Shown here one piece after another: positions 4,732-44,015 of a stretch of 64,000 nt of DNA. How positions within the stretch are numbered: the stretch's first letter is position 1; every line of letters starts with the position of its first letter. Origin of the DNA: Antarcticibacterium flavum (lineage in GTDB: Bacteria > Bacteroidota > Bacteroidia > Flavobacteriales > Flavobacteriaceae); contig NZ_CP040812.1 in assembly GCF_006159205.1 (NCBI RefSeq), positions 2,418,001 through 2,482,000 on the forward strand, given 5' to 3'. Made by a program: the position numbers and the translations under genes. Below the pieces are notes generated by a model, which worked only from the letters and a program-made list of their open reading frames with translations, was not told the origin of the DNA and did no database searches.

Positions 4732-5430
4732 ATGAGAATGAATAGATTTTTTGTGTGGGTATTGGTGATGACAAGTATGGGATTCATGTCCTGCAGCAGT
4801 GATGATGATGCTACTCCTGTGGCTACTCTTACCATGGAAGCGAGGCCTGTAATTACCAGCGAAACTTCTTCACCCAGTGTAGTGGGCGGTGCAAACCTGC
4901 TGGAGGCACAAATAAGATTAAGAGATATTGGAGTAATCAAAGCCGGCGAGAGTACCGGTAGCAGGACCCTTTTTGGTGATGGGAGTGTACGTCAAATCCC
5001 GCTTCTCAATAGTGGGTTACCGGCCCAGCCTACGCAGGTAGGATCTGCCCAGCTTGAACAAGGTAATTATGATAGGGTCACTCTAAGACTTGACAGGGGT
5101 CAACAACTCCCCGCAGCCGATCCTATGAATAACCGCTCACTTTCCATCTCGGGGACAGTGAATAATATGCTGCTTATGATACATACAGATGTGGAGGAAA
5201 TTATTACCAGGACCCTACAGGGAGGGGCACTTAACCTGGCCACAAATGAACGAATTTTTTTAAATATCAATATAAATACCCTCTTTACCGGGATAGATCT
5301 TACCACTGCAATGGACGGTAATGGGGATGGCACTATTGAAATTGAACCATCCAACATAGATGAGAACCGTAGCCTCTATACCAGAATGGTAGATAATCTA
5401 CCAAATGCCATTACGGTAACCCGGGAATAA
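4732..5430 (+). CDS. secreted lipoprotein, DUF4382-like
   Basis: A 232-residue lipoprotein. The signal peptide ends in a lipobox with Cys21 (FMSC), followed by SSDDD, which fits the acidic surface-export signal known for Bacteroidota lipoproteins. The mature part is rich in beta-strand-like sequence with segments such as LLEAQIRLRDIGVI and GNYDRVTLRLDRGQQLP, consistent with DUF4382-type domains (a tentative match by pattern). The function is not known. It converges with the secreted nuclease gene, with 6 bases between the two stop codons. Confidence 0.6.
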   Translation: MRMNRFFVWVLVMTSMGFMSCSSDDDATPVATLTMEARPVITSETSSPSVVGGANLLEAQIRLRDIGVIKAGESTGSRTLFGDGSVRQIPLLNSGLPAQPTQVGSAQLEQGNYDRVTLRLDRGQQLPAADPMNNRSLSISGTVNNMLLMIHTDVEEIITRTLQGGALNLATNERIFLNININTLFTGIDLTTAMDGNGDGTIEIEPSNIDENRSLYTRMVDNLPNAITVTRE

Positions 5431-5436
5431 TTTTTA

Positions 5437-6510
5437 TTAAGGCAATTCCCTAATAAGAAAAAGATAGACAGGGAAGTGGTCGCTATAACCTCCGGTGTAT
5501 CCACCGTAGTCATAACTGCGGTAGGGATACCCTTTGAATTGCCCGTGCGGGGTGATGAGATAATCAGGATTAAAGATCCCGGCCTTGTAGAACTGGTAGG
5601 AGGAATAATCTCCGGATAGAAACGCCCGGGAAATTATAATTTGATCAAACAAATTCCACCCATCCCTGTAAGCCAGTGTACCCTGTCCTCTTTTTAGCAT
5701 TTGTTCCATGGGATTATACAATAGAGCATCAGTGGCTTTAGATTTATCTCCTGTAGTACCCAGTACCTTCTTAATACTCTTATTATGGGGATCATCGTTA
5801 AAATCTCCCATTACAATGATCTTGGGATTTACCTCCAGCCTTGAAAGAGAATCGATAATTCTGCGATTGAGTTTTGCCGCCTGTTCCCGTTTATAACTAC
5901 TCCTGGCTTCACCCCCGCTTCTTGAAGGCCAGTGGTTAACTATAAAATGTACAGGTTCTCCATCCAGGTAACCACTTACCACCAGTTGGTCCCGGGTATA
6001 TACCCGTTTAGCAGGCTCATCCCTGTCATACAACAAAAGCCTGTGGGAACTGGAGGATCCTGGAATGAATACATCTTTTTTGTAAAGTAATCCTACGTCT
6101 ATACCCCTACTGTCTGGAGAATCAAAATGTATGATCCCATATTTCGAATCAAGCAGCAAAGGCCTATTTACCAGATCCTCAAGCACCGTGAGGTTTTCTA
6201 TCTCACAAACACCAATTATCGCAGGAGTAGTGTTAGTAGTCGCCTGCCCAATATCTGCTATTACCCTCGAAATCTTAGTGAGTTTATCCTGATATTTTTC
6301 CACAGTCCAAATGTCTTTTCCCTTGGGGGTTCTGTCCTCATCGAAGATCCATGGATCATCAATTGTATCAAATAAATTTTCTACGTTGTAAAATGCAATT
6401 GTTCTTATGAGAAATAATTTGTCATCCTGTGCATAGAAAGTACCCGGAAACAAAATTGACATTAACAAAATCGTAATAAACCTTCTTTTTAAATGTAAAA
6501 TTATTAACAT
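5437..6510 (-). CDS. secreted endonuclease/exonuclease/phosphatase (EEP) family protein
   Basis: A 357-residue EEP-fold metal-dependent phosphodiesterase with an N-terminal signal peptide (hydrophobic core about 11-26, then FYAQDD) and no lipobox, so it is periplasmic or exported. Catalytic residues of the fold are visible: Asn42/Asn45 in FYNVENLFD, Glu103 in GVCEIEN, Asn192-His193 in VNHWPSRSGG, Asp236/Asn238 in MGDFNDDP and Asp344-His345 in GYSDHFP. These predict hydrolysis of phosphodiester bonds, plausibly in DNA or RNA. It is divergent from the TonB receptor gene (113 bases between starts), and the trio nuclease/receptor/DUF5689 lipoprotein looks like one locus for use of extracellular nucleic acids or another phosphodiester. 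That role is inference. Confidence 0.85.
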   Translation of the reverse strand: MLIILHLKRRFITILLMSILFPGTFYAQDDKLFLIRTIAFYNVENLFDTIDDPWIFDEDRTPKGKDIWTVEKYQDKLTKISRVIADIGQATTNTTPAIIGVCEIENLTVLEDLVNRPLLLDSKYGIIHFDSPDSRGIDVGLLYKKDVFIPGSSSSHRLLLYDRDEPAKRVYTRDQLVVSGYLDGEPVHFIVNHWPSRSGGEARSSYKREQAAKLNRRIIDSLSRLEVNPKIIVMGDFNDDPHNKSIKKVLGTTGDKSKATDALLYNPMEQMLKRGQGTLAYRDGWNLFDQIIISRAFLSGDYSSYQFYKAGIFNPDYLITPHGQFKGYPYRSYDYGGYTGGYSDHFPVYLFLIRELP

Positions 6511-6623
6511 ATCATCTTTTTTTTATTAAAATTATATGAAAATAGCATCTTAAGGTAAGGAAAAAATAAAAATATAAAAATATAATTTTTAACTTAATTG
6601 TTGAAATCCAGACAATTATACAA
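6511..6623. promoter_or_regulatory. divergent promoter region, nuclease and TonB receptor
   Basis: A 113-base, very A+T-rich spacer between two divergent start codons. It must hold the promoters of both genes. No exact TAnnTTTG box was found in it, so a different sigma factor or an activator may be used; that is inference. Confidence 0.45.
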
Positions 6624-9455
6624 ATGAAGAGAAAAGGTTTTCTGCTCCTAACCTGGTTTTTGGGGCTGTTCCATATGGCTGCTCAGGAAACAATTATCAC
6701 AGGGAAAGTTATAGATGCTGTGACTTACGAACCGTTGGCAGATGTAGAAATCAGTATTTTGGGAAGTACCTTGACAATTACCACCGGGGAATCGGGTGAA
6801 TTTCAAATTGCTGGAGAGGATATCCCTGTAGGAAATCAAACTTTCATTTTCAATAAAACAAGATACCACGTTTTAAGAATGCCTGTGAATATTGAAAAAG
6901 ATAAAATGAAGAATTTAGATATAATCGCACTTGAGATTGATATGTTCAGAGATCAAATGCTTCTGGGTGTAGTGAGTCTGGGGGAAAGTGAACTTAATGA
7001 TGGAGAGGGCAGTGTTGATAATGTGGCGGGACTCCTGCAGGCATCACGGGATGTATTCCTTAATGCGGCCGCTTTTGATTTTAGCCAAACCTTTTTCAGG
7101 CCAAGAGGACTGGATAGTGAACACGGGAAAATCTTCATTAATGGAGTCGAAATGAACAAACTCTTTAATGGCAGGCCTCAATGGAGTAACTGGGGAGGAC
7201 TCAATGATGTGCAGCGCAACCAGGTATTCTCTATGGGACTCGTGCCGGCTGAAGTTGGTTTTGGTGGACTCGCAGGGAGTACAAATATTGTGATGAGGGC
7301 TTCTAAATATCAGGGTGGTGGCAGGATTTCCTATGCAGCGGCCAACAGAAGCTATACCGGGAGGCTAATGGCTACCTACAACTCCGGTGAAACACCCGCG
7401 GGTTGGTCATATTCTTTCTCCATGTCAAGGCGTTTTGCACAGGAAGCATATGTAGAAGGAACATTGTATGATGCCAATGCGTTTTTCTTTGCAGTTGAAA
7501 AAAAGATCGGTCTGCGGCACAGTCTTAATTTTACAACGTTTTATACACCCAATATTAGGGGGAGATCTTCAGCAAATACACAGGAGGTAATTGATTTGCG
7601 GGGGAGACGATACAACTCCTTCTGGGGATATCAAAATGGAGAATTGCGCAATTCCAGGGTAAGGGAAATAAAAGAGCCTGTATTAATGCTTAATCATTAC
7701 TGGCAAATTTCCGGCAAGACCCAATTAAATAGCAATCTCTCCTTTCAATTCGGGAAAACTGGAAACAGCCGTATCGATTTTGGAGGAACCCGTCTTGTGG
7801 TAGGCCCCGAGGGGCAGGAAAGTTATATTGGCGGAGGACGAAATCCAGATCCTGCCTATTATCAAAAACTTCCAAGCTATTTTTTTAGAAATATAAATAA
7901 TCCTAATTATGAAGCAGCTTATCGATCCAGGCAGGAGTTCACGCAAAATGGTCAGTTGGACTGGGAGAGCTTATATACTGCCAATGAGCTGTTCCTTGGC
8001 TCTGGAGGAAATGCCGTATATGTGATCGCAGAGGACAGGACAGATGATCAACAATTTACTGCAAATACTATTCTTGATCACAAATTTAATTCCTCCTGGA
8101 GCTTAAGCTCGAAGCTGAGATATACCCGGCTGTTTAGTGAGAATTATGCACAGTTAAAAGATCTTCTGGGAGGCACCGGCTACCTGGATATTGATTTCTT
8201 TGCTGAAGGTGATCAAACCTCGTCCCTGGGTGACCGTGCACAAAGTGATCTTGACAACCGTAACCGCATTGCCCGGCAAGGAGATAGATATAAGTATAAT
8301 TTTGAACTTCATGCAGAAGTTTTTGAGGCATATTCACAAGTACAGTTTAAACATAAGCAGGCAGACATATACCTCGCGGCAGAGGGTACCCAAACGCGGT
8401 ATCAAAGAAATGGTTTATACAGGGCCGGCAGCTATCCTGAAAATTCTCTTGGAAGGAGTGCGCTACAGGTCTTTAATAATTTCGGAATTAAATTTGGAGG
8501 CAATTACAGGATAACCGGGAGGCATTTGATCAATTTCAATTCAGGATATCTCACCAGGGCACCCACCCTTCGGAATACCTTTTCCAATTCGCGACAAAAC
8601 AATAATGTTGTTAGGGATATAAAGAGTAAAGAAATTCTATCGTTGGATTTGGGATATATTTACAGGTCTCCACAGTTTCGCTCCCGACTTACCGGTTATT
8701 TTACTGAATTCAAAGATGCCACAGAGATCTCATTTTTTTATGCCGATGGACTCAGCGGGCTTGGCAGGACAAGTACTACGGCCTTTGTACAGGAGGTCCT
8801 CCAGGGAATAGGGAAAAGGCACCTGGGTGTGGAGCTTGGCCTAGATTATCAAGTTACGTCCACAATAAAACTTAAGGCCGCTGTAGCCGTAGGGCAGTAT
8901 ACTTACAGCAACAACCCGCGCTTATATTTGACTTCAGATAGTTTTGCAGAAACTGTGGATTATGGAGAGTCAATGCTTCGCAATTACAGGATAGCAGGCG
9001 GTCCTCAACGCGCTGCACAGATAGGTTTTGAATACCGGGACCCCGGATTCTGGTGGTTTGGCTCCACCGTTAATTTTTTCTCTCACGCCTTTGCAGATAT
9101 TGCACCCCTTACCCGTACCTCAAATTTTCTTACCGATGCAGATGGCCTTCCCCTTCTTAACTATGACAGTAATACAGCAAGGGATCTTTTAAGACAGGAA
9201 CAGTTTGATAACTACATCCTGGTCAATGCCGTGGGCGGAAAGTCCTGGCGGGTGAAAAGTTCATATATAGGATTCTTCATAAGTCTCAATAACATATTTG
9301 ATGTGCTGTATAAAACAGGAGGTTTTGAACAATCAAGAAATGCTAATTACAGGACTCTCAAGGAAGACAGGGAAAGAGAACAGCCCGTTTTTGGTAATAA
9401 GTACTGGTACGGGACTGGCGCGAGTTATTATGCTAATGCCTATATAAGATTTTAA
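6624..9455 (+). CDS. TonB-dependent outer membrane receptor with carboxypeptidase-regulatory-like domain
   Basis: A 943-residue outer membrane protein. The signal peptide is at 1-20 (ends HMAAQE). It is followed by a carboxypeptidase D regulatory-like domain (about 24-105: TGKVIDAVTYEPLADVEIS), a plug domain (about 120-235, with RPRGLDSEHGKIFINGVEMN and GLAGSTNIVMRAS), and a 22-strand barrel region ending in the aromatic terminal residue Phe943 (YANAYIRF). Such receptors import large or scarce ligands using TonB-ExbBD energy. The DUF5689 lipoprotein gene follows after 3 bases, replacing the usual SusD partner. The nearby secreted nuclease suggests the ligand may be nucleic-acid-derived. The ligand assignment is inference. 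Confidence 0.9.
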   Translation: MKRKGFLLLTWFLGLFHMAAQETIITGKVIDAVTYEPLADVEISILGSTLTITTGESGEFQIAGEDIPVGNQTFIFNKTRYHVLRMPVNIEKDKMKNLDIIALEIDMFRDQMLLGVVSLGESELNDGEGSVDNVAGLLQASRDVFLNAAAFDFSQTFFRPRGLDSEHGKIFINGVEMNKLFNGRPQWSNWGGLNDVQRNQVFSMGLVPAEVGFGGLAGSTNIVMRASKYQGGGRISYAAANRSYTGRLMATYNSGETPAGWSYSFSMSRRFAQEAYVEGTLYDANAFFFAVEKKIGLRHSLNFTTFYTPNIRGRSSANTQEVIDLRGRRYNSFWGYQNGELRNSRVREIKEPVLMLNHYWQISGKTQLNSNLSFQFGKTGNSRIDFGGTRLVVGPEGQESYIGGGRNPDPAYYQKLPSYFFRNINNPNYEAAYRSRQEFTQNGQLDWESLYTANELFLGSGGNAVYVIAEDRTDDQQFTANTILDHKFNSSWSLSSKLRYTRLFSENYAQLKDLLGGTGYLDIDFFAEGDQTSSLGDRAQSDLDNRNRIARQGDRYKYNFELHAEVFEAYSQVQFKHKQADIYLAAEGTQTRYQRNGLYRAGSYPENSLGRSALQVFNNFGIKFGGNYRITGRHLINFNSGYLTRAPTLRNTFSNSRQNNNVVRDIKSKEILSLDLGYIYRSPQFRSRLTGYFTEFKDATEISFFYADGLSGLGRTSTTAFVQEVLQGIGKRHLGVELGLDYQVTSTIKLKAAVAVGQYTYSNNPRLYLTSDSFAETVDYGESMLRNYRIAGGPQRAAQIGFEYRDPGFWWFGSTVNFFSHAFADIAPLTRTSNFLTDADGLPLLNYDSNTARDLLRQEQFDNYILVNAVGGKSWRVKSSYIGFFISLNNIFDVLYKTGGFEQSRNANYRTLKEDREREQPVFGNKYWYGTGASYYANAYIRF

Positions 9456-9458
9456 GCT

Positions 9459-10844
9459 ATGAAAGAATTCAACATCATCCCGGTAATTCTCTTTGCACTT
9501 TTACTTTCCTCCTGCGTAAAATCAGATGATTTTGAACTGCCTGAAATGGTAACACCTGAACTGCCTGCTCAGGGAAATATCACGACTATTGACGCCGTAA
9601 AAGGTCATTACAATTTTAATACAAATACTATTTACACGTTCAGGGATACCAATATGTATTTTGAAGGTTATGTGGTCTCCAGCGATGAAGGTGGTAACTT
9701 TTATAAAAAGCTGGTCCTGCAGGACAAACCTGAAAATCCTACTGCAGGAATCCAGGTGCTTATTGATGACACCTCACTTTCAGATTCCTTTAATTTTGGC
9801 AGAAAAGTAATTGTGAAACTGGATGGACTAAGTTTGGGTTACAACAATGGTGTCATGCAATTGGGTAGGCAAAACCGGGGAGATGTTGTAGCTATTTCCA
9901 GGGCGATCCTGGATGACCATATTGTAAGGACCGGCATTACGGCGAACATTGTGCCTTTGCCCTTAAAAATAAGAGATTTTAGTGAAAGATATAAAAATCT
10001 GTTTATAAGGCTGGAGGGGGTACAGTTTAACAGGAACCTGGTGCGGGAAAATGATCGTTACACTTTCGCCGCAGAGAATTTCGATAGGTTTGACGGGGAG
10101 CGACAACTGGAGAGCTGCAGTGATGGTACCACTACTACCTTAAGCACCAGTACATTTTCAAACTTTAGATCATTGCTACTTCCGGCAGCTTCAGGAAATA
10201 TTGAAGGGGTATTAACCCGCAACTTTTATGATGATTATTATATCATTACGATGAATTCTCCTGAAGACCTGGATTTTAATAATGGCCCAAGATGTGATCC
10301 TGAATTCTTTAAATGCGGGGACCAATTTTCCCCGGGTGTAGAAACCGTTTTCCAGGAAAGTTTTGAGACCATAACTACTCAAAGAATGCTGGAAACAAGA
10401 GGCTGGACCAATTTTAATTCCAGCGGGGGGAGCAAAAGGTTTGAGCCGGGAGCGCAGGGAGGAAACCGGCACGTAAGAATATCGGCCTATAACACGCAGG
10501 AGAATCCGCTGGAAGCCTGGCTGGTCACTCCCCCAATAAATATTAATACCATTGAGAATGAGATTTTATCATTTGATCTTCGAGCCTCGTATGATAATGC
10601 AACGATTTTAAGGGTATATATTACAGCAGATTATACAGGAAATCCTTTGACCACAAACTGGTATTTGCTCGATGCTAATATTCCTGTTGGGCCAACAAAT
10701 CAAAATGCTGTTACATTCACAAGATCCCATATAGATATTTCCTGTCTTGAGGGAACAGTTCATGTAGCGTTCAGGTATCTGGGTGCAGCTTCAGAAAAAA
10801 CTACAACTTATGATATCGATAACGTAAGAGTAACAGGAAATTAA
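9459..10844 (+). CDS. DUF5689 surface lipoprotein with C-terminal jelly-roll (choice-of-anchor J-like) domain
   Basis: A 461-residue lipoprotein. Cys19 is in the lipobox (LLSSC) and is followed by VKSDDFELP, which contains the SDDFE-type surface-export signal described in Flavobacterium, so the protein should face outward. Residues about 35-270 match DUF5689 (TTIDAVKGHY, FEGYVVSSDEGGNFYKKLVLQD); about 295-461 resemble the choice-of-anchor J jelly-roll (FQESFETI, LVTPPININ, YDIDNVRV). It is translationally close to the TonB receptor gene (3-base gap), so it is probably the surface binding partner of that receptor, as SusD is for SusC. It contains four Cys residues in the 213-315 interval that could form disulfides. 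The ligand is unknown. Confidence 0.8.
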   Translation: MKEFNIIPVILFALLLSSCVKSDDFELPEMVTPELPAQGNITTIDAVKGHYNFNTNTIYTFRDTNMYFEGYVVSSDEGGNFYKKLVLQDKPENPTAGIQVLIDDTSLSDSFNFGRKVIVKLDGLSLGYNNGVMQLGRQNRGDVVAISRAILDDHIVRTGITANIVPLPLKIRDFSERYKNLFIRLEGVQFNRNLVRENDRYTFAAENFDRFDGERQLESCSDGTTTTLSTSTFSNFRSLLLPAASGNIEGVLTRNFYDDYYIITMNSPEDLDFNNGPRCDPEFFKCGDQFSPGVETVFQESFETITTQRMLETRGWTNFNSSGGSKRFEPGAQGGNRHVRISAYNTQENPLEAWLVTPPININTIENEILSFDLRASYDNATILRVYITADYTGNPLTTNWYLLDANIPVGPTNQNAVTFTRSHIDISCLEGTVHVAFRYLGAASEKTTTYDIDNVRVTGN

Positions 10845-12202: not shown

Positions 12203-13423
12203 TCATTCCTCTTCCCCGTATGTATCATATTCCGGATACAGGAAATTATTATAAGGAAAACGGGTGATGTGTATCTCCCTTACTGCCTCATAAACTTTTC
12301 TTCTGAAATCTTCCATATTCTCCTTATTAAGAGCAGAAATAAAAAGAACGTTGTCTCCCATCCTGTTCATCCAGGTTTGACGCCAGTCTTCGAGGGAATT
12401 ATGAGCAACTGTCCTTTTTGTCTCGAGATCATCCTCGGCAATTTTTTCCTGTTTATAGGCATCGATTTTATTGAAAACCATAAGGGTAGGCTTATCTGCA
12501 CTCTTGATATCTGCCAAAGTTTGGTTTACAGATTCAATGTGCTCTTCAAAATTTGGGTGTGAAATATCGACCACGTGTAATAGCAGGTCGGCCTCCCTAA
12601 CTTCATCCAGGGTTGATTTAAAAGATTCAATTAACTGGGTTGGCAACTTCCTTATAAAGCCCACAGTGTCGGTTAAAAGGAAAGGGAGGTTTCGAATTAC
12701 CACTTTTCTCACAGTGGTGTCAAGGGTTGCGAAGAGCTTATTTTCAGCAAATACGTCGCTTTTGCTTATCACATTCATAAGGGTGGATTTACCAACATTG
12801 GTATACCCTACAAGAGCTACCCGTACCAATTGGCCACGGTTGCCCCTTTGCACCTCCATTTGCTTGTCTATGGTCTCTATTTTCTTTTTAAGTAGTGAGA
12901 TCTTATCCCGTACTATACGCCTGTCTGTCTCGATCTCGGTTTCCCCGGGACCTCTCATTCCAATACCACCCCGTTGTCTTTCAAGGTGGGTCCACATTCC
13001 TGCAAGCCGCGGCAGTAGATACTGGTATTGTGCCAGTTCCACCTGGGTGCGGGCATAGCTTGTCTGGGCTCTTTGTGCAAAAATATCCAGGATAAGATTG
13101 GTCCTGTCCAGTACTTTACACTGGAGTACACGTTCTATGTTCTTTTGTTGAGCAGGCGAGAGTTCATCATCAAAAATCGCCGTGCCTACCTCATTCTCAT
13201 CTATAAATTTTTTAACGTCATTGATCTTTCCAGAACCTATAAAGGTTTTAGGATCTGGACGTTCCATTTTTTGTGTGAAACGTTTGATGACCTCCCCTCC
13301 GGCAGTATAGGTAAGGAATTCAAGTTCATCAAGATACTCTTCAAGCTTATCGGCGTCCTGATCCCTGGTAACGATCCCTATAAGGACTGCCTTTTCATAA
13401 TTTAAATCGGTCTTTTCTATCAT
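12203..13423 (-). CDS. hflX: ribosome-associated GTPase HflX
   Basis: A 406-residue GTPase. The N-terminal HflX domain includes the signature GIGMRGPGETEIETDRR (about 153-169). The G domain has the P-loop GYTNVGKS (206-213), a switch II/G3 DTVGF (252-256) and a G4 NKID near 322. A C-terminal extension ends in an acidic tail (YGEEE). HflX binds the 50S subunit and splits or rescues stalled 70S ribosomes, notably under heat stress. A -7 box (TAACTTTG, 13429-13436) ends five bases before the ATG, so the message may be leaderless or nearly so. Confidence 0.94.
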   Translation of the reverse strand: MIEKTDLNYEKAVLIGIVTRDQDADKLEEYLDELEFLTYTAGGEVIKRFTQKMERPDPKTFIGSGKINDVKKFIDENEVGTAIFDDELSPAQQKNIERVLQCKVLDRTNLILDIFAQRAQTSYARTQVELAQYQYLLPRLAGMWTHLERQRGGIGMRGPGETEIETDRRIVRDKISLLKKKIETIDKQMEVQRGNRGQLVRVALVGYTNVGKSTLMNVISKSDVFAENKLFATLDTTVRKVVIRNLPFLLTDTVGFIRKLPTQLIESFKSTLDEVREADLLLHVVDISHPNFEEHIESVNQTLADIKSADKPTLMVFNKIDAYKQEKIAEDDLETKRTVAHNSLEDWRQTWMNRMGDNVLFISALNKENMEDFRRKVYEAVREIHITRFPYNNFLYPEYDTYGEEE

Positions 13424-43250: not shown

Positions 43251-44015
43251 ATGAAAATAATTTCTTACAACGTTAATGGAATACGGGCAGCTATTCGAAA
43301 AGGGTTTATGGACTGGTTGCAACAGGCCAATCCAGATATAGTTTGCCTTCAGGAAATAAAAGCCACGCCGGAACAACTCGACCTGGATATTTTTGAAGAA
43401 GCAGGATACCCCTATCACTACTGGTATCCGGCAACTAAAAAAGGTTATAGTGGAGTAGCTATTCTAAGCAAACATGAACCGGAACATATAGAATACGGTA
43501 CCGGGATCGATTATATGGATTTTGAGGGCCGTAACCTGCGCGTAGATTTTGAGAACTTTTCTGTAATGAGCCTTTATCTTCCATCTGGCACCAACATCAA
43601 CAGGCTGGAACATAAACTACAATACATGGCAGATTTCCAGCGTTATGTAGATCAACTAAAGCTGGAGGTTCCAAACCTTATAATTTGCGGTGATTATAAT
43701 ATATGCCACCGGGCAATTGATATCCACGACCCGGTAAGGCTGCAAAACACTTCCGGATTTCTTCCAGTGGAGAGGGAATGGATAGACAGCTTTATGAAAA
43801 GTGGTTTTATAGATTCTTTCAGGCATTTTAACGAAGATGGTGATCATTACTCCTGGTGGAGCTACAGAGCAAATGCACGGAATAATAATAAAGGATGGAG
43901 AATAGATTATAACCTAGTGGCAGAACCACTTGCCGACAGGTTAAAAAGGGCGGTAATTCTTCCAGATGCCATGCACAGCGACCACTGCCCTGTTCTTTTG
44001 GAAATTGAACATTAA
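43251..44015 (+). CDS. xth: exodeoxyribonuclease III (AP endonuclease)
   Basis: A 254-residue EEP-fold DNA repair nuclease with no signal peptide, which separates it from the secreted EEP protein at 5437-6510. Active-site residues: Asn7 (SYNVNGIRAAI), Glu35 (CLQEIKATP), Asp/Asn in CGDYNICH, and Asp-His in SDHCPVLLEIEH. It incises abasic sites and has 3'-5' exonuclease activity. Confidence 0.94.
   Translation: MKIISYNVNGIRAAIRKGFMDWLQQANPDIVCLQEIKATPEQLDLDIFEEAGYPYHYWYPATKKGYSGVAILSKHEPEHIEYGTGIDYMDFEGRNLRVDFENFSVMSLYLPSGTNINRLEHKLQYMADFQRYVDQLKLEVPNLIICGDYNICHRAIDIHDPVRLQNTSGFLPVEREWIDSFMKSGFIDSFRHFNEDGDHYSWWSYRANARNNNKGWRIDYNLVAEPLADRLKRAVILPDAMHSDHCPVLLEIEH

Follow-up and report, generated by a model that had tools for sequence, protein, structure and literature searches.

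The stretch of DNA analysed here, referred to as the window, comprises 64,000 nucleotides of Antarcticibacterium flavum (contig NZ_CP040812.1, positions 2,418,001 to 2,482,000) and carries near its beginning three genes, which encode a nuclease of the Pfam family PF19580, a TonB-dependent receptor and a lipoprotein with a DUF5689 domain (Table 1). The relation of this three-gene locus to natural transformation is the subject of this analysis. The nuclease gene is divergent from the other two, and the lipoprotein gene follows the receptor gene after 3 bp, an arrangement already described in the first-pass annotation of the window and confirmed by the open reading frame (ORF) coordinates and by Pfam.

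Table 1. Features of the three-gene locus, with positions in the window and spacings taken from the ORF coordinates
Feature	Position	Strand	Remark
PF19580 endonuclease/exonuclease/phosphatase-family protein, 357 aa	5437-6510	-	predicted orthologue of RA0C_RS04910 as assigned by gene order
Divergent intergenic region, 113 bp	6511-6623		presumably carries both promoters
TonB-dependent receptor, 943 aa, with N-terminal carboxypeptidase-regulatory-like domain	6624-9455	+	orthologue of RA0C_RS04915
Lipoprotein, 461 aa, with DUF5689 and C-terminal jelly roll (choice-of-anchor J)	9459-10844	+	orthologue of RA0C_RS04920

The nuclease matches PF19580 above the cut-off (E value 5e-116) with intact catalytic motifs, and the key residues, which we take from the superfamily to be catalytic, are unchanged in 88/88 aligned homologues. 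Its N-terminus resembles a signal peptide without a lipobox (signal peptides were assessed by eye throughout), no match to the type IX sorting tail Por_Secre_tail was found with Pfam, and the 88 aligned proteins end 9-18 residues after the last motif. Due to this signal-peptide-like start without type IX tail or lipobox, the nuclease is predicted to reside by default in the periplasm. Hence, of its earlier description as a secreted nuclease, export is retained and secretion is not. Its profile shows a weak match to the solved structures 9sf8/9sf9 of an endonuclease/exonuclease/phosphatase protein (E value 8e-4), and sequence searches for solved relatives of the locus proteins otherwise returned domain-level or chance-level matches only.

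The receptor matches PF13715 (E value 3e-9) and, weakly and below the cut-off, the Plug family (E value 0.008). In its AlphaFold2 model the mean predicted local distance difference test score (pLDDT) is 76.6, with values below 50 in much of the plug region (residues 107-218). This model matches TonB-dependent transporters including PqqU, Fiu and FhuA, with a strong match of the barrel and a poorly predicted plug. The lipoprotein contains PF18942 (DUF5689; E value 8.5e-53) and the NCBIfam choice-of-anchor J domain (E value 1.8e-21), and starts with a lipobox (Cys19) and an acidic stretch. By eye, the strand order modelled for its DUF5689 part (approximately residues 40-270) looks OB-fold-like, and the Foldseek/VIA rows shown concern the C-terminal jelly roll.

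The three genes are kept together well beyond the window. Among 196 genomes of the order, surveyed with the receptor called at E < 1e-100 and one nuclease match taken per genome, the receptor is present in 60, and all counts of partner families in this survey are among the matches listed. PF18942 lies directly downstream of the receptor in 57/60, with no adjacent match in G168, G003 and G010, of which G003 has a related neighbour; the domain as such occurs in 115/196 genomes, often within long proteins unlike the window lipoprotein. PF19580 is divergent from and adjacent to the receptor in 44/60 receptor genomes, comprising 11/12 of the window's family outside genus g2, 29/31 of other families and 4/17 of g2, while the remaining matches lie on the same contig 8.6-56 kb off (12/60) or on another contig (4/60). 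Adjacency would be expected at random in about 0.0004 per genome, a rough figure, and the genomes share ancestry and are not independent trials.

A set of named loci, the best 80 of 584 that the receptor alignment retrieved, dominated by near relatives of Riemerella, gave a similar picture, with a divergent and adjacent nuclease in 68/80. Of the 12 loci without it, two have a contig edge at the receptor and ten, all Flavobacterium records, are not at an edge. The lipoprotein gene was scored adjacent in 77/80, and in L082, L090 and L095 it overlaps the receptor end by 92-137 nt, due to start choice. In 16/80 loci (including L119, L121, L122, L124, L131, L147 and L149) a gene for a protein of about 200 aa intervenes between receptor and DUF5689 genes, the latter then beginning approximately 630-660 nt past the receptor; the intervening protein of L119, the one scanned, has a weak DUF5017 match. 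Two of the named loci, L127 and L132, are Flavobacterium-like loci in metagenome bins titled Candidatus Nitrotoga and Rhizobium, which are probably contaminated or misnamed. Across the phylum 296 genomes were sampled, with the receptor called at E < 1e-140 outside the order; it is present in 11 that belong to other orders of the class, with a lipoprotein of the DUF5689 kind adjacent in 10/11 and the nuclease in 9/11, where it is divergent in seven and co-directional in two. The locus models revealed no linked nuclease or lipoprotein in G200 and G011, the latter with a PF18942 match beside a weak receptor match. The outer flanks vary, the nuclease being found in 33/34 loci and the next commonest neighbour in 8/34, in a hand-picked set that favours nuclease-bearing loci. 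These data support a single conserved unit of receptor, lipoprotein and nuclease families, and the earlier proposal that the three form one locus is upheld by this check of their co-occurrence. A second, more distant TonB receptor gene lies about 4-15 kb from the three genes in many genomes, Chryseobacterium-like ones included (G138, G133, G079, G031, G040, G005 and others).

In two genomes of one genus from another order, the three genes are part of a co-directional run of five (L189:6904-14786 and L191:6527-15289), in the order of a first gene (586 or 887 aa), a DNA/RNA non-specific endonuclease of PF01223, the PF19580 nuclease, the receptor and the DUF5689 lipoprotein, with gaps of 73-78 bp behind the first gene and 7-22 bp thereafter. 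The first proteins have a lipoprotein-like start, and that of L189, the one scanned, has a weak BACON match (E value 0.006). The PF01223 proteins (E values 1.6e-41 and 2.9e-42) retain the DRGH motif and likewise start like lipoproteins; they belong to the non-specific endonuclease family that includes EndA. Among loci longer than 9 kb, no PF01223 gene was found beyond these two, using a two-sequence model that may miss distant members. The presence of this second nuclease in the run points independently to a putative nucleic acid cargo.

What the pair is for is suggested by genetics in Riemerella anatipestifer. A transposon screen in this bacterium yielded two adjacent genes of strain ATCC 11845, RA0C_RS04915, with a carboxypeptidase-regulatory-like domain, and RA0C_RS04920, with DUF5689 and DUF5017, and markerless deletion of either reduced transformation to below detection, as compared to 5.4e-5 in the wild type (PMC8459023). 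The transcription of the upstream gene, RA0C_RS04910, which within the open-licence literature is named in this paper alone, was unchanged. In the model of those authors, RS04920 binds DNA, RS04915 carries it, a helix-hairpin-helix (HHH) protein helps and ComEC passes it, with strand separation left to an unidentified protein (PMC8459023). On the basis of sequence, the window receptor and lipoprotein are orthologues of RA0C_RS04915 and RS04920, with identities of 32-34% to two Riemerella receptors and 27-29% to two Riemerella lipoproteins.

The gene order in the Riemerella-genus genome G458 is recA, dinB, sdhB, two further sdh genes (assigned by eye), comEC, a 145-aa ORF, a carboxyltransferase gene, and then nuclease, receptor and DUF5689 lipoprotein. 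The RA0C numbers, which rise by five per gene, fit this order with recA as RS04870, comEC as RS04895, receptor as RS04915 and lipoprotein as RS04920; therefore RS04910 is implied by gene order to be the same PF19580 nuclease. The nucleases of the window and G458 are 41% identical. The R. anatipestifer protein P0244 shares 93.6% identity with the G458 receptor and is equally close to those of G456 and G457 (93.8 and 93.2%), and the identities of the pair to Chryseobacterium gambrini, 65.7% and 43.0%, are near those in Table 4 of PMC8459023 (65.9% and 43.01%). All six Riemerella-genus genomes have one DUF5689 match each, and five more of them show the same three genes. R. columbina (L065), a species reported to be competent (PMC7965970), carries the three genes. 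No published study of the nuclease, RA0C_RS04910 included, or follow-up on the pair was found in the open-licence literature, outside which most subscription journals lie.

The surroundings of the locus were covered by a Pfam scan of nine ORFs between 2475 and 14447, with ORF 12203-13423 left out, and the following negatives hold for these nine. They include no SusD-like protein and no glycosidase or lyase, and an ordinary polysaccharide utilisation locus is ruled out on this ground, in agreement with the first-pass annotation. Siderophore genes were not seen either, with no wider look for them. Anti-phage defence was also considered and rejected, as five proteins gave zero PADLOC matches. A probable lipoprotein of 232 aa without a Pfam match is encoded at 4732-5430, its end lying 6 bp from the convergent nuclease gene, and a further endonuclease/exonuclease/phosphatase-family gene (PF03372, 254 aa) is found elsewhere in the window at 43251-44015.

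Taken together, the three genes rather probably specify an outer-membrane complex for DNA uptake as in natural transformation of Bacteroidota, with the PF19580 nuclease processing the incoming DNA. Nucleic acid is the likeliest cargo of the receptor, since its orthologue and that of the lipoprotein are essential for transformation and an endonuclease lies in the same run of two genomes. In the proposed sequence of events, the surface lipoprotein with its DUF5689 and jelly-roll parts would capture DNA above the receptor, TonB energy would open the receptor and DNA itself would presumably pass into the periplasm, where the helix-hairpin-helix protein would hold it. The divergent nuclease, acting in the periplasm as predicted, would nick, trim or single-strand this DNA, and ComEC, DprA and RecA would bring the single strand to the chromosome. 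The lower transformation of tonBA and tonBB mutants of R. anatipestifer (PMC8383284) counts in favour of this reading. The linked nuclease may thus be the single-stranding protein missing from the model of the Riemerella authors, and is a good candidate for the missing part of a DNA-uptake machine. By analogy, A. flavum may be naturally competent and the pair may serve the same function there. Its genome encodes ComEC and DprA, a DUF1343/NamZ protein and a protein of 294 aa that has two HHH_3 stretches; the DUF1343/NamZ and HHH homologues of Riemerella transformation genes are separated by less than 10 kb (G000:C1:3508680-3509297, 3518384-3518767). The first-pass annotation had proposed that DNA or RNA is cut outside and its products imported; nucleic acid as cargo is kept from this proposal, whereas cutting outside disagrees with the predicted periplasmic location of the nuclease. 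A nutritional purpose is not supported; the orthologue genetics point to natural transformation, which that annotation had not considered.

Several observations weigh against a dedicated uptake complex, and most of them concern the nuclease. PF19580 occurs in 127/196 genomes of the order, including 67/136 without the receptor (among the matches listed), and in 15 loci hand-picked from those 67 genomes (L229-L243) all 15 nucleases look exported; the models detect neither a receptor nor a DUF5689 gene linked to them, apart from a weak receptor match in L230 at a distance of 4.9 kb. A nuclease dedicated solely to the three-gene unit is ruled out by these exported homologues. Among the matches listed, the nuclease is not adjacent in 13/17 genomes of g2, and G087 keeps the pair with its only PF19580 match lacking a signal peptide and lying 8.6 kb off. 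Further copies without a signal peptide (L244-L248) comprise four second copies in receptor genomes and one in G109 of the window's family, which has no pair; G109 (L073) also encodes an exported nuclease, 55% identical to that of the window, 1.2 kb from a different and more typical TonB receptor. In the available part of the report on the 3,000-mutant Riemerella screen, the nuclease is not among the genes named (PMC8459023). Due to the exported homologues without the pair, the copies without a signal peptide and the G087 case, the locus may have recruited a nuclease of general periplasmic function. A stronger form of this explanation, in which the pair takes up DNA and the nuclease merely adjoins it, taking no part in the uptake step, is considered somewhat unlikely, since adjacency is kept across orders in both divergent and co-directional layouts while the outer flanks of the hand-picked loci change. 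Apart from the nuclease, ComEC, DprA and HHH proteins are also present in most of 14 control genomes, so that their presence in A. flavum lends weak support; F. johnsoniae was non-competent under the conditions used for R. columbina (PMC7965970), though all homologues are ascribed to it (PMC8459023); and no published measurement of DNA binding, DNA passage or nuclease activity was found.

Two further explanations concern the cargo. The pair could import pieces of DNA or RNA as a source of phosphate, nitrogen or nucleosides, with the nuclease digesting them in the periplasm and transformation in Riemerella as a by-product. The gene runs of L189 and L191, where two nucleases accompany the receptor and the lipoprotein, resemble such a digest-and-import locus, and peptone and phosphate affect Riemerella transformation, in opposite directions in two species (PMC8383284, PMC7965970). 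However, both pair genes are essential for R. anatipestifer transformation (PMC8459023), which needs long intact DNA, neither a periplasmic phosphatase nor a nucleoside transporter was identified among the nine ORFs scanned, and no published growth test was found; such scavenging is regarded as unlikely. Alternatively, the receptor could import another nutrient required for competence, for example an iron compound, with an indirect defect in transformation. R. anatipestifer transformation requires iron, and of the tonBA and tonBB mutants, which both show lower transformation, it is the tonBB and not the tonBA mutant that suffers iron shortage, to which the authors ascribe the tonBB effect (PMC8383284), a further point against direct DNA import. 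Most solved fold relatives of the receptor are siderophore or metal receptors, as expected of the fold in general. Nevertheless, the lipoprotein partner is equally essential (PMC8459023) and the locus is linked to nucleases, which makes import of another nutrient highly improbable.

If DNA uptake by this complex is correct, the receptor would import, driven by TonB, a polymer of the size of DNA. This bears on two questions, how DNA crosses the outer membrane of Bacteroidota and which enzyme renders it single-stranded, and for the latter one candidate gene can be named, RA0C_RS04910 by gene order, along with its orthologues. The linkage data extend the receptor-lipoprotein-nuclease system beyond the family and the order. 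More tentatively, and short of what could be called probable, Bacteroidota may possess an outer-membrane DNA route of their own, in which a TonB-energised receptor with a DUF5689 lipoprotein cap and a built-in periplasmic PF19580 nuclease, preparing single strands for ComEC, does the task performed in other Gram-negative bacteria by the secretin/type IV pilus machine, with variants including one with an added PF01223 lipoprotein nuclease. The receptor-lipoprotein logic of SusCD-like systems and the Riemerella pair genes are known, and the nuclease partner is new in that no earlier report of it was found in the open-licence literature.

Among known systems, the Gram-positive competence nucleases EndA and NucA make single-stranded DNA for ComEC, and the PF19580 nuclease would resemble them in this proposed role while belonging to another fold family. 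A further protein of A. flavum itself, a putatively type IX-secreted nuclease of 1333 aa (L221:3587-7588, minus strand), has lamin-tail, DUF5689, Exo_endo_phos and SprB matches, and hence joins DUF5689 with an endonuclease/exonuclease/phosphatase domain as the three-gene unit does; unlike that unit, it is a single fused chain with a weak sorting-tail match (E value 4e-5, just under the Pfam cut-off). In SusC/SusD loci, as in the window locus, the gene for a degrading enzyme is placed beside those for a TonB receptor and a surface lipoprotein; they differ in containing SusD and a glycosidase in place of the DUF5689 lipoprotein and the nuclease. The closest counterpart is the Riemerella pair, which has the same carboxypeptidase-regulatory-like receptor with a DUF5689 jelly-roll lipoprotein directly downstream and the same nuclease divergent upstream. 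It differs from the window locus by the sequence identities given above and in that its requirement for transformation is established by deletion, a role proposed for the window pair by orthology; and the nuclease, linked to the pair in the window as well, is not counted among the components of the system in the available part of PMC8459023.
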